From: Chitinophagaceae bacterium
GTDB lineage: Bacteria > Bacteroidota > Bacteroidia > Chitinophagales > Chitinophagaceae
Length of the DNA stretch: 64,000 nt
Assembly (NCBI GenBank): GCA_020847395.1
Contig: JADLCD010000040.1
Coordinates: 46,738-110,737 of the forward strand
Direction: 5' to 3'
This document shows, piece by piece, positions 59,099 through 63,767 of the stretch. Each line of letters starts with the position of its first letter. Position 1 is the stretch's first letter. Under the pieces are notes generated by a model, which saw nothing but the letters and a program-made list of their open reading frames with translations, ran no database searches and had not been told where the DNA came from. Position numbers and translations under genes: made by a program.

Positions 59099-59252
59099 GG
59101 GTAAGATGTTGCGGTGCCAATATGGTAAAGTGCAGTATTAGGTATCTTGTTTAAGCCGCCGGGTTATGTCTTATAGGGTTGCTGGTAAAGGTTTGGGGCT
59201 TTGCGATGGCTGGGCAATCGAATGAATTTTCTTTATCGTCATTTTTTGCAAA

Positions 59253-59576
59253 TTACATTTTAGGTATTACAGATAAAACCAATAATATTATTGAGATGAT
59301 TAATGCGCCAAAAATGGTCGTCTTTCTTATGTAAAGGGCAAGAACTATAAAAAATATAGTTTGAAAAGCGTTTGCACCAATTGTTAGATTAGAAATAAGG
59401 GTGTTAGAAACATTCAGGTTAATATAGTTCAGGAAACCGTTAAATATTAAACCTAATGAGGCTGAAAAAAACCAAAGCGCTTCGGCTGATACCTGCTTGT
59501 ATTTTTTAAATGCAAATACAGAATGTCCAAAGCCTAAAAATAAAATTGCCCAAATTGCTATTTTATATATTTCCAT
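59253..59576 (-). CDS. Small multi-pass membrane protein, unknown function
   Basis: MEIYKIAIWAILFLGFGHSVFAFKKYKQ...; four hydrophobic segments. Confidence 0.65.
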   Translation of the reverse strand: MEIYKIAIWAILFLGFGHSVFAFKKYKQVSAEALWFFSASLGLIFNGFLNYINLNVSNTLISNLTIGANAFQTIFFIVLALYIRKTTIFGALIISIILLVLSVIPKM

Positions 59577-59608
59577 TTTTTGCTTACGGTGTTTGTTTAC
59601 AATTATCA

Positions 59609-59790
59609 CTAACGGTAGGGCTTGCTGCTGTGCTGGCGCTCAATAAACGTTTCGTCCGAACGTCAGACCAGTAGCAAACCAAAAGCCGAAGATAACTACA
59701 AAAGCCGAATAAAAAACGTTACGCCCGCAACTGAGGCTGAATGGCGAGCTGATGATGATGCTAACAACGCCCCGAGCCGCTTGCACCAAT
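59609..59790. repeat. Recurring intergenic element, copy 1
   Basis: TAACGGT start; block CGTTACGCCCGCAACTGAGGCTGAAT shared with copy 3. Confidence 0.5.
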
Positions 59791-59857
59791 ATTGTGTGTT
59801 GTATTTATTGTCCTTAACGTTTAAAATTAAATTGATGAAGTTGTCAGCAGTAGAAAA

Positions 59858-60505
59858 TTAATGAATGCCAGCCACTCCTTTATAAATTAGCATACGTAAT
59901 ACATCAGCTTCTCTCAAGTACCAACTTCCCCACGAAATAGGTGTATCACCATTTGAGTCTTTCATAGAAGGATCAGCGCCAGCCTCCAACAACATTTTTA
60001 TAATAGGCACATTTCCAAATGCCGCAGCCCTGTGTAATGGCGATTCTCCTTTAAGGTAGGCGTCACGCATAAAGCAAAGGGTTGGTTTACCTGCTGTAGT
60101 TTTTTTATTAACATCTGTACCTGCCGCTATTAAAATCTTTACAATCTCTGCCCTTTCGCCCATTTCACTTGTCTTGCTAATTGTATAATGCAAGGCGTTT
60201 TCCCCGGTATCTGTAAAAGAAAAATTAGCATTCTCGCCTTTATCTAATAACCATTTAACTGAATCTACCTTACCGTTGTAGGCTGCATTACAAAGCAGGT
60301 TAGCACTTTCAAAGGATATTTTTGCCCCTAAATTGTAAAATAAATCCAATGCTTTTGTATTGCCATCCCAAGCAGCAGAAAACGCAGCAAAATTACCCCA
60401 GGCGTCGGTGTAGTTGATATTTGCACCTTTCAAAACCAATTCTTCAACAATGGTTAAATCGCCATTTGAAGCTGCTGCTAACATTTTTTCATCCAGATTT
60501 TCCAT
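59858..60505 (-). CDS. Ankyrin-repeat protein
   Basis: 215 aa; repeats such as GESPLHRAAAFGNVPIIKMLLEAGADPSMKDSNGDTPI. Confidence 0.9.
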   Translation of the reverse strand: MENLDEKMLAAASNGDLTIVEELVLKGANINYTDAWGNFAAFSAAWDGNTKALDLFYNLGAKISFESANLLCNAAYNGKVDSVKWLLDKGENANFSFTDTGENALHYTISKTSEMGERAEIVKILIAAGTDVNKKTTAGKPTLCFMRDAYLKGESPLHRAAAFGNVPIIKMLLEAGADPSMKDSNGDTPISWGSWYLREADVLRMLIYKGVAGIH

Positions 60506-60580
60506 TACTGATATTTATTTCAATGTATCAATATTTTTGATGCGGCGAACAGCGAATGCGCCTGTTTTTTCTCCCCCATT

Positions 60581-60805
60581 TTAATGATAAAGGGATTGTG
60601 AGTTTTTCCCAAAGCGTGAAAACCAGGCTGTACTACTGCTATTTTCTGTTGCTATCCAATAAAACCCGTGAGCCTCTAAGCAGCGATACCCGCCATCAAG
60701 GCCTCTATTTCCACCGTCATAAAGCGGAAGTTTTTTGATGTCTCGTTCATGGCCACAGGAAGTTAACAAAAGCCCGAAATGCAGTGTCAATATAAAGGTT
60801 TTCAT
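60581..60805 (-). CDS. Putative small lipoprotein
   Basis: 74 aa; MKTFILTLHFGLLLTSCGHE lipobox. Confidence 0.5.
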   Translation of the reverse strand: MKTFILTLHFGLLLTSCGHERDIKKLPLYDGGNRGLDGGYRCLEAHGFYWIATENSSSTAWFSRFGKNSQSLYH

Positions 60806-60847
60806 TCAGTCACTTTTTAAAGAGAAAGATGCTACAAAAAATAGTAC

Positions 60848-60960
60848 ACAACGGTTTACAGATTGGCGAAGGCAGGACTTTGAAAAACGTCGGCAAAAAT
60901 ATAGCACAAATGTTGACAGAAATACAAATGCTCAATTACTTCTGTCTGCCCTGCTTTTGC
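60848..60960. repeat. Recurring intergenic element, copy 2
   Basis: ACAACGGTTTACA...GGCAGGACTTTGAAAAACGTCGGC aligns with copy 3. Confidence 0.5.
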
Positions 60961-60975
60961 TGATGTTGCAGGCAG

Positions 60976-61953
60976 TTAAAATTTATTAATTTCAACCCTT
61001 GTATTTGATTGTCGCCCCTTTTCTGTATCGTTGCTTACTAATGGTTTGGTGTCGCCCAACCCTTTAATGTCAATTAAACTTGGTTTTATACCTAAAGTAA
61101 CAAGTTCATTTTTTATTGCTGCTGCTCTTTTCTCTGTTAATGCCAAAGTATAGTCAGGCTTACCAATAGGGGCACTATGTATCTCTATTTTTAATTTCCA
61201 ATCTGGGTGTGCCTGGAAAATACCGACAATATTTAATATTTCGTCTTTTGATTCGGTTAGTAAAGTAGCGTTATCTAATTCAAAAAATAAATTCGTAATT
61301 GTTTTTCCTTTAGTTTCTATTTCTTTTAAAATGCTATTTTCCTTGTTTATATTGGTTGTAAGCAATTGTGTTTGCTTCTCAACAACGAGCAGGTTATAAA
61401 AACCAGAACCGATGGTAGCAGGCACTAATTGAATCCAAACCTCTTTGTCAGGTGTTTTTATCACATATTCTACAACCCCGTAGTAAGCACTCGGGGCAAC
61501 CTGGTGTTTAGAACCTAAACTAACAAAGTCATAATTTGATATTTTTTTCAACTGGTCTTCAGGCAATTTTCCGGCATAAATTTTTTCGCCACCTAACGTA
61601 GAAACAACTTTGTCAAACTCTTGAATGATTTGAAATTCAGATGGAAGTTTTTTTTCTCTGTCAACTACATTTAATATTTGAATAGAAACTTGCCCTATAA
61701 CTGAAAAAATTTTTTTACCGTCATAAAAATAAACTTCGTTTTGCTCAACTGTAATTGAGTCACTTGAATTTAAAGGCTTGAAATTCGGCAATGTTTTAAA
61801 ATAGGGAAAAACTCCTAAATCAGCCTTTGAAACAGGTGTCGCCTTGTTTGAGCCTACTGTTGAACCTGTTGTTTTTGTTGTTTGAGCATTAGCATTTATT
61901 ATTACTAAAAGTGAAAAAGTAACTGTAAAAAGTAGTTTGTCCATGTGTTTCAT
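60976..61953 (-). CDS. OmpA-family protein
   Basis: 325 aa; signal peptide; C-terminal FELDNATLLTESKDEILNIVGIFQAHPDWKLKIEIHSAPIGKPDYTLALTEKRAAAIKNELVTLGI. Confidence 0.85.
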   Translation of the reverse strand: MKHMDKLLFTVTFSLLVIINANAQTTKTTGSTVGSNKATPVSKADLGVFPYFKTLPNFKPLNSSDSITVEQNEVYFYDGKKIFSVIGQVSIQILNVVDREKKLPSEFQIIQEFDKVVSTLGGEKIYAGKLPEDQLKKISNYDFVSLGSKHQVAPSAYYGVVEYVIKTPDKEVWIQLVPATIGSGFYNLLVVEKQTQLLTTNINKENSILKEIETKGKTITNLFFELDNATLLTESKDEILNIVGIFQAHPDWKLKIEIHSAPIGKPDYTLALTEKRAAAIKNELVTLGIKPSLIDIKGLGDTKPLVSNDTEKGRQSNTRVEINKF

Positions 61954-61987
61954 TATTAATATTTTAAGCTACCCGAATTAATTGCTT

Positions 61988-62200
61988 ACAACGGTACACC
62001 TTTGCGATATGGCGGTATTTGAAAATCGTCAGCCCGCAACCGCTGCTGAATAAAGTTACAAAGTTCATTGTTAATTCTATTATCTGGCGTTGTTCGTCGG
62101 CTGAAACTAAAGCCGATTAGCGAACAAAATGGTGAGCATATATTCGTCACCCCGCCATATAGCCAACCCGCCGGTTAGCGGTTCGTGCTTTTTGTTGTGA
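61988..62200. repeat. Recurring intergenic element, copy 3, with internal hairpins
   Basis: ACAACGGTACACC...GGCGGTATTTGAAAATCGTCAGCCCGCAACCGCTGCTGAAT; inverted repeats TTGTTCGTCGGCT/AGCCGA..CGAACAA and ATATGGCGG/CCGCCATAT. Confidence 0.55.
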
Positions 62201-62245
62201 AGCTATTGTCTCAATATAATTCTCTGGTGAAACAACTCTTTTTTC

Positions 62246-62839
62246 TCAAGGCCCAACATTGCCTGTTACAATCTCTCCAGCCCGTTTATAATTAGTTATA
62301 ATAACTCCTTTTGAGGTAACATGGCTTTCTGTTAATATAAACGCTGCCGGAATTGCGCCGTTGTCAAAAAGTTTCTTTCCTTCGCCAAGTGTCAACGGAT
62401 AAATTTTGAGCCGGAGTTCATCCACCAAATCATGCTTTAGCAACAGTTGAATTAGTTTGCTACTGCCCCAAACCTGAATGTCCGCGCCTTCTGAATTTTT
62501 CAGCTTTTCAATATCCGTTAAACCTTTAATGAAAACGGTATTTTTCCAATCTGAATTTTTAATAGTCTGCGATAGAATATATTTAGTACCGTCATTGATA
62601 CCTGGCCAAAACCCGGCATGTTGCGGCCAATAAGATTCAAAAATCTCAAATGTTTTTCTGCCTAAAATGTAATCTGCCGGTTTCATCTCTTCTGCCATAA
62701 TTTTACCAAAATCCTCATCACCGTAAGATGCTGTCCAGCCTCCATATTTGAAACCGCCCGATGTGTCTTCCCCCGGCCCGCCGGGTGCCTGCATAACACC
62801 ATCCAAAGAAATCATTGACAGTACAGTTATTTTTCTCAT
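62246..62839 (-). CDS. Dihydrofolate reductase-like (RibD C-terminal domain) protein
   Basis: 197 aa; MRKITVLSMISLDGVMQAPGGPGED, LGRKTFEIFESYWP, VWGSSKLIQLLLKHDLVDELRLKIYPLTLGEGKKLF. Confidence 0.9.
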   Translation of the reverse strand: MRKITVLSMISLDGVMQAPGGPGEDTSGGFKYGGWTASYGDEDFGKIMAEEMKPADYILGRKTFEIFESYWPQHAGFWPGINDGTKYILSQTIKNSDWKNTVFIKGLTDIEKLKNSEGADIQVWGSSKLIQLLLKHDLVDELRLKIYPLTLGEGKKLFDNGAIPAAFILTESHVTSKGVIITNYKRAGEIVTGNVGP

Positions 62840-62888: not shown

Positions 62889-63767
62889 CTATTTTAAAAA
62901 GCTGTTTATATAGTTCAAAATTGTTGCTGTTTGCATCATCAGGCTTACATGCCCTTGCGAAGGAACAATAGCCAATTGCGATTTTGGCATTGGTGCTAAA
63001 TCAGCAGATACACCACCTCCAAGTAATTGATAAGTTTTCATCAACTCAATTTTATCCAATCCATCATTATCGCCAGATATAATTAAGACCGGTGAAGCAA
63101 TTTTCGCAATATTTGAATCGCCAATATTGAATGATACTCCGGCAAAAGCAACCATTTGTGATATAAATTTTTTCCAATTAGTTTTATCAGGTGCTACAGC
63201 ATCGTATTCAGTTTTGACAGGTGTGTTATCAAAAAAATCAGGCTTAAAATTTTTAAACCCACTGTTTACTACTGGTAGCCAGCCGTTTGTTTTATATGTA
63301 GAGGAAATGATTACTAATTTTTTTAACCGTTTAGGGCTTTGTACAGCAAACTGGTAAGCGACGGAGCCGCCCATGCTAAATCCTGCTACATCAGCACTGT
63401 CTATTTTCAGGTAATCCATTACTCCTTCCACATCACTTGCTAAAGTTTTAATCGCTAATTTTCTATCAGAATAAGGTGTATGTCCATGTCCCTGCATTTC
63501 AATGGCAATAACTTTCCTGTTTTTTGATAGTTCTGGTATTAGCTGCCCCCAATTCATGTTAATAGTCCAAAAAGCACCATGCAGTAAAATGATAGGCTTA
63601 CCCTCGCCATATATTTCGTAGTAAACTTTGATGCCGTTGACAGGTGCATAGCCGCTGTCGGCGGGCCTGTTTGGTTGTCCGTATGATTGAGATACTAAAT
63701 AAATTATACTAATTGCAATTAGCAGAATTGATTTGAGTGAATTATCTGTTTTGAATAAATTTTTCAT
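62889..63767 (-). CDS. Alpha/beta hydrolase
   Basis: 292 aa; signal-like N-terminus, PIILLHGAFWTINMNW, VAGFSMGGSVAYQFA, GHVSLMMQ. Confidence 0.92.
   Translation of the reverse strand: MKNLFKTDNSLKSILLIAISIIYLVSQSYGQPNRPADSGYAPVNGIKVYYEIYGEGKPIILLHGAFWTINMNWGQLIPELSKNRKVIAIEMQGHGHTPYSDRKLAIKTLASDVEGVMDYLKIDSADVAGFSMGGSVAYQFAVQSPKRLKKLVIISSTYKTNGWLPVVNSGFKNFKPDFFDNTPVKTEYDAVAPDKTNWKKFISQMVAFAGVSFNIGDSNIAKIASPVLIISGDNDGLDKIELMKTYQLLGGGVSADLAPMPKSQLAIVPSQGHVSLMMQTATILNYINSFLK

Follow-up and report, generated by a model that had tools for sequence, protein, structure and literature searches.

The window analyzed here is the whole stretch of 64,000 nucleotides from G000:C41:46738-110737, and its right end coincides with the end of the contig. 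Toward this end, genes on the minus strand are interspersed with copies of an attC-like element, as listed below with E-values from Pfam or from a covariance model of the element (R1).

59186–59216, plus strand: possible remnant of the element, a lone 5′ arm (AAAGGTTTGGGGCTTTGCGATGGCTGGG) with a mutated AAC and without the 3′ half, recognized by sequence.
59253–59609, minus strand: gene for a 118-aa membrane protein, a candidate cassette gene before element 1; open reading frame (ORF) without a Pfam family.
59611–59800, plus strand: element 1, attC-like, with AAC at 59611–59613 (R1, E 1.6e-15; nhmmer, 57 bits).
59858–60505, minus strand: ankyrin-repeat protein, cassette gene (Ank_2, 2e-29).
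60581–60805, minus strand: 74-aa ORF with a lipoprotein-like signal, in the cassette of the ankyrin gene; without a Pfam family.
60838–60852, plus strand: R″ arm of element 2 (AAAATAGTACACAAC), by sequence.
60850–60972, plus strand: element 2, a shortened copy of the ~120-bp size class, from AAC to GTT (R1, E 3e-4).
60965–60979, plus strand: R′ arm GTTGCAGGCAGTTAA, the GTT end of element 2, by sequence.
60976–61953, minus strand: OmpA-domain protein of 325 aa, cassette gene (OmpA, 3e-12).
61978–61992, plus strand: R″ arm of element 3 (TTAATTGCTTACAAC), by sequence.
61990–62176, plus strand: element 3, a full-length attC-like site (R1, E 5e-33; 81% identical copy on contig C66).
62174–62188, plus strand: R′ arm (GTTAGCGGTTCGTGC), the GTT end of element 3, by sequence.
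62246–62839, minus strand: RibD_C-domain (dihydrofolate reductase-like) protein, cassette gene or flank (RibD_C, 5e-18).
62889–63767, minus strand: alpha/beta hydrolase, cassette gene or flank (Abhydrolase_1, 5e-18).

Element 3 has the layout AAC, spacer, L stem, variable part, L stem, spacer, and GTT, and the partner of its R′ arm GTTAGCGGTTCGTGC would fall past the contig end. The GTT end of element 1 has decayed to ATT at 59791. The first-pass annotation, made from the window alone, had noticed that three spacers share sequence and had picked out two sets of common motifs. R1 matches each of the three spacers; they are copies of a single element, which includes both sets of motifs and is fuller than was then described, at ~190 bp with a 3′ half that the annotation lacked. 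The weaker resemblance that it reported near 59198 holds for the 5′ arm but does not extend to a 3′ half, and R1 did not match the site, which is at best a remnant.

R1 was built mostly from copies in relatives together with the window copy at 61990, and its training excluded the copies at 59611 and 60850, so that the matches to these two are independent. As the annotation had suggested, the element was sought elsewhere with a covariance model and by BLASTN of the third spacer. The former gave 39 matches scattered on many contigs of the 5.17-Mb genome, including all three spacers, and the latter a 196-bp copy with 81% identity on C66 (E 8e-45) along with matches at eight other places, with several copies clustered on C64. 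A search of the region against Rfam returned only sub-threshold miRNA matches (E 2 and 4).

The element spans AAC to GTT and is mostly 185–193 bp long, with shorter size classes of ~121 and ~153 bp and a longer one of ~231 bp. Its core ends read GTTRNNNG at 134 and 131 of 138 ends, and GTTRRRY at 8 and 11 of 138. Inside the ends lie a spacer and then an L stem of 15–17 bp. Among 175 non-redundant copies, 91% of the L-stem cells were paired, compared with 61.6% (sd 1.0) after shuffling, and up to five pair types occurred per position; one stem position was usually a C·A mismatch (103/175). In a separate alignment of 26 sequences, compensated double changes were found at 12 of 17 stem pairs. The matching R boxes described below and the covarying L stem give the layout of an imperfect hairpin (R box, unpaired spacer, L box), and a folded single strand may be the substrate of recombination.

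Element length also varied in a stepwise manner: in loci L158, L181, L186, L195, and others, the lengths differ by ~32 bp (121, 153, 185), as if internal modules (CGTCnnnCCnGAACTGmwGCyGAAT) were gained or lost. Shorter elements of ~100–125 bp, with unchanged ends and long stems that are almost perfect, were observed in L195 (Cytophagales), L198, and L210, and in L195 a second palindrome, GTTCAAAATGCGAGG...CCTCGCATTTTGAAC, precedes each element.

Arrays of the element were found in relatives, with ~40 copies in 30 kb of G003:C14, 10 in G015:C46, ~20 in G002:C1, and two arrays in G034. Neighboring elements were co-oriented in 213 cases and opposed in 1, at a median spacing of 710 bp, and the main ORF between elements lay on the strand opposite to the element as written in 188 cases and on the same strand in 15. 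The arrays consist of co-oriented single-gene cassettes bounded at GTT. The first-pass annotation had placed each element at the 5′ side of its gene; this must be corrected, as the element, read on the gene strand, sits downstream of its own gene, and the one seen at the 5′ side is that of the preceding cassette. The cargo includes Mrr-type and HSDR_N nucleases, HEPN, HTH antitoxin-like, Fic, HATPase, OmpA, and ankyrin proteins, and many cassette genes have no family assignment. Many draft contigs of the window's genome end inside or beside arrays (C22, C41, C64, C66, and C111), so that the cassette content of this strain is probably underestimated.

In integrons, the core site is split so that the bases after GTT belong to the next cassette, and it is the two ends of one cassette that match, not the two ends of one site. 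The same pattern was found here. Over 138 cassettes, the 14 bases that follow GTT matched the reverse-complemented bases preceding the next AAC at 8.99 positions, compared with 5.19 (sd 0.14) for shuffled partners and 5.43 when both ends were taken from one element. The four variable end bases were identical in 126 of 165 cassettes, compared with 7.7 by shuffling and a maximum of 17 in 1000 shuffles. In the window, the ends of the OmpA cassette, GTTGCAGGCAGTTAA and the reverse complement of the R″ arm of element 3 (GTTGTAAGCAATTAA), match at 12 of 15 positions. At position 10, 100 of 165 cassettes have G in the arm that carries GTT and A in the opposite arm, a regular difference that makes the paired arms asymmetric. 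The annotation's proposal of mobile gene units with a common end agrees with these results: the cassettes carry differing genes, and the sequence they share is a candidate hairpin-forming recombination site.

A gene-less repeat of ~195 bp, whose ends match (TTGAACTAAACTTTCAGTAGCC ... GGCTACTGAAAGTTTCGTTCAACA) and which contains a ~40-bp hairpin of its own that ends in GTTA, was observed at six places (L015:10758 and 11892; L016, minus strand, 5410, 6720, and 8013; L017:8014), in most of them at the G/TT junction of elements. It is either a minimal cassette or an insertion element targeting these elements. At L015:12839 and L019:10625, which are the ends of contigs C64 and C111, the left end of this repeat with CCTTCGGTAGCC runs into an ORF starting with MEAKTTKRQYTTVLSQ directly after the GTT of an element; the ORF probably encodes a transposase, and both contigs stop there.

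At the head of the arrays in G003, G017, G010, and G005 lies the gene for a PF00589 tyrosine recombinase of ~400 aa; in G005:C1 and G007:C4, disrupted copies of this gene adjoin elements. The annotation had also recommended looking for an integrase elsewhere in the genome. An intact one with the catalytic residues present is encoded on C174, which ends 340 bp after the gene, so that its linkage to an array is unseen in this genome. The window holds an integrase-less part of a cassette array, and the genome's integrase and attI-like site lie on C174.

A scan of GTDB genomes with six integrases as queries yielded 80 best loci, mostly from Chitinophagaceae and also from Cytophagales, Sphingobacteriales, and Flavobacteriales. 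In the loci fetched by the integrase, elements lay downstream in one orientation in ~30 and upstream in very few, and many loci stop less than 2 kb from the integrase, as repeats would cause. A model-free scan of one strand for AAC/GTT ends and a stem found 51 candidates in 329 kb downstream of the integrase, compared with 1 in 587 kb upstream. Locus L222, from a record titled Phycisphaerales MAG05, contains both the integrase and elements, by transfer or mis-binning.

When the far end of the first cassette was compared with the stretch between the integrase and the first gene, the best agreement was 11–16 of 18 positions, and an equal stretch upstream gave 10–13. The sequence beside the integrase suggests an attI-like site, in which a left flank, CRTAWATWTAYGW, precedes GTTRNNNG (conserved as CRTAWAT...GTTRNNNG), usually ~100–130 bp past the integrase stop codon; in the window's genome, it lies 112 bp after the C174 integrase. 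Downstream, the pattern matched 31 of 82 stretches, and upstream it matched 1; this count is not blind because the pattern was derived from the first cases, which are part of the same data.

The distance from the beta-hairpin lysine to HxLRH was 63–67 aa in the cassette integrases, 73–74 aa in Xer proteins, and 104–107 aa in IntI. The IntI-specific insertion was absent in all cassette integrases measured, and the alignment to the solved IntI4 structure skips this region. No protein of the window's genome and no cassette integrase scored above the curated cut-off of TIGR02249; the sub-cut-off candidates in this genome were general tyrosine recombinases and were rejected. The best NCBIfam score of the integrase was for recomb_XerA_Arch, also below the cut-off. 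In the tree, IntI and the cassette integrases formed separate clades, each on one side of a branch. With viral and plasmid relatives added, the best tree grouped the cassette clade with TnpF and viral recombinases, and a joint clade of IntI and the cassette integrases was not rejected (AU p 0.37).

The N-terminal domain of ~85 aa was predicted alone with a pLDDT of 95. Interpretation was restricted to this domain because the model of the full-length integrase reached a pTM of only 0.52. A Pfam search of the domain gave only weak DUF5710-type matches below the cut-off. Its top Foldseek match was the HARP domain of SMARCAL1 (PDB 4o66; probability 0.87, weak E-value of 0.11, 11% identity), which is a substrate-recognition domain, and the HARP-like domain may recognize the folded site.

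Elements identical by more than 85% occur in other genera, and one 82% copy was found in another family, which fits horizontal transfer. In ten relatives, the site orthologous to the window, next to an enoyl-CoA-hydratase-like gene, has no elements, and most of them share a conserved continuation; in its place the window has the cassettes together with an aldo-keto reductase and an AraC regulator. Conserved synteny, which the annotation had regarded as speaking against mobility, was not found for the genes at this site in these ten genomes. G002 and G004 share a syntenic locus with flanks 84–90% identical and differing cassettes, so that a single locus is polymorphic in its array. The two have one cassette in common at 99.6% identity, and the identity ends just past the GTT of the neighbor element; a lone transfer of this cassette was ruled out by the syntenic flanks. 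One element used as a query gave no match in the plasmid and phage record collections, and there is thus no evidence for arrays riding on sequenced plasmids or phages.

These data bear on two other explanations. If the element were a dispersed repeat linked to transcription (a terminator, structured RNA, or REP- or MITE-like sequence) that lies between genes by chance, its intergenic position and ability to fold would be accounted for. However, it belongs to no Rfam family, and such a repeat would not explain why the complementarity joins cassette ends rather than element ends, why the copies lie only downstream of one integrase family, or why they coincide with breakpoints, and we regard this explanation as extremely improbable. 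The second, which is compatible with an integron-like identity of the elements, is that the arrays are relics of past recombination, with the system inactive in the window's genome and perhaps in most hosts. The missing GTT of element 1, the possible remnant at 59186, the integrases disrupted next to elements in two relatives, and the scattering of copies over many contigs point in this direction. The intact C174 integrase with its catalytic residues does not, and the 99.6% identical cassette lying beside different neighbors in two species and elements more than 90% identical between species indicate recent movement in the group. We consider inactivity doubtful.

In a sample of 297 genomes from the phylum, 47 carried elements. 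The integrase family was found in 33 of these 47 and in 55 of the 250 others (odds ratio 8.4, p 3e-10), and canonical IntI in 7 of the 47 and 77 of the 250; the figures of 33 and 7 come from a manual count of the lists, and related genomes are counted separately. Some array-bearing genomes, such as G034, had no match to the integrase family, and for many integrases of Flavobacteriaceae and Sphingobacteriaceae no array was found by these models. G054, of the same order as the window's genome, encodes a canonical IntI above the cut-off (422 bits), the only Bacteroidia genome among the matches listed, and carries none of these elements.

A canonical integron, or a CALIN (an array without an integrase), with long attC sites mobilized by an IntI that is missing from the assembly or encoded elsewhere would have the same layout, with a GTT core, a spacer between two paired boxes, and single-gene cassettes, and IntI does occur in the phylum (84 of 297 genomes, in the GTDB sense). 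Several results argue against it: no IntI scored above the curated cut-off in the window's own genome, only one sampled genome within Bacteroidia has IntI among the matches listed, the arrays adjoin a non-IntI integrase with which the elements co-occur while IntI is if anything depleted, and the core is GTTRNNNG, with GTTRRRY at only the few ends given above. We judge this origin of the arrays very unlikely. The annotation's view that the units are analogous to integron attC cassettes without being the same is borne out by an integrase that lacks the IntI domain and by the differing core consensus. Since two features that define integrons, the IntI domain and the GTTRRRY core, were both tested for and do not hold, the system is filed here as integron-like and not as an integron.

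The sequences themselves show the array, matching ends of cassettes, an attI-like site, a stem that covaries, linkage to the integrase, and natural polymorphism breaking at GTT. From these features we infer, with a probability of roughly 90%, that the spacers serve a gene-cassette system of integron-like type as its recombination sites, on which the ~400-aa tyrosine recombinase probably acts. A cassette would consist of one gene, or a small pair such as a toxin-antitoxin pair, and the ~190-bp element downstream of it. In the free circular cassette, the two ends would meet and could form a long imperfect hairpin with an outer R box of ~14 bp, in which GTTRNNNG... pairs with ...CNNNYAAC, followed by an unpaired spacer of ~5 and 3 nt, the L stem of 15–17 bp, and a variable top. 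The recombinase at the array head would insert the cassette at the GTT of the adjacent attI-like site or, alternatively, between cassettes at the GTT of another element, and would excise cassettes in the same way.

How the system arose is a more tentative matter. We give slightly less than an even chance to a second origin of cassette capture, separate from that of integrons, in which a Xer-like recombinase gained a HARP-like domain recognizing folded DNA in place of the IntI insertion, built its own counterparts of attI and attC, and came to serve as the gene-cassette platform of Bacteroidota. Integrons are reportedly rare in Bacteroidetes proper, for which IntegronFinder 2.0 names one complete integron, in Salinibacter (PMC9024848), and surveys define integrons by the IntI domain and an attC model (PMC2426708, PMC9668308). 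Surveys keyed to these two features would overlook a platform that uses a different integrase and different sites. A search restricted to an open-access library found no description of such a system, and this gene-capture system, widespread in Bacteroidota, is apparently undescribed. If active, it would constitute an extensive pool of mobile genes (accessory, toxin-antitoxin, and restriction-like) in Bacteroidota of soil and water and provide a natural comparison for the route by which tyrosine recombinases come to use folded DNA sites.

Among known systems, the arrays resemble sedentary chromosomal integrons (IntI/attI/attC, for example the Vibrio superintegron) in having an integrase and an attI-like site at the array head, long arrays of co-oriented single-gene cassettes in which a gene is followed by its site with a junction at GTT, sites composed of an R box, an unpaired spacer, an L box, and a variable top, and toxin-antitoxin pairs and genes of unknown function as cargo. 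They differ in that the integrase lacks the IntI-specific insertion, has an extra N-terminal domain, forms a separate clade, and is co-oriented with the cassettes, that the R box is ~14 bp with GTTRNNNG instead of 7 bp with GTTRRRY, and that the elements are mostly ~185–193 bp long. With recombinases of the XerA/XerC/XerD type, the integrase shares the CB and catalytic domains and the absence of an insertion between the beta-hairpin lysine and HxLRH, but it has the additional ~85-aa N-terminal domain and is linked to cassette arrays, not to dif. The TnpF-like recombinase next to tet(X3) on Acinetobacter plasmids is 53% identical over the catalytic half, but it consists of 221 aa and has no N-terminal domain. 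The N-terminal domain of the integrase resembles the SMARCAL1 HARP domain in its Foldseek match and in the motif GAxWSxTxKCWYxP; the match has an E-value of only 0.11 and 11% identity, and the domain has no Pfam assignment.
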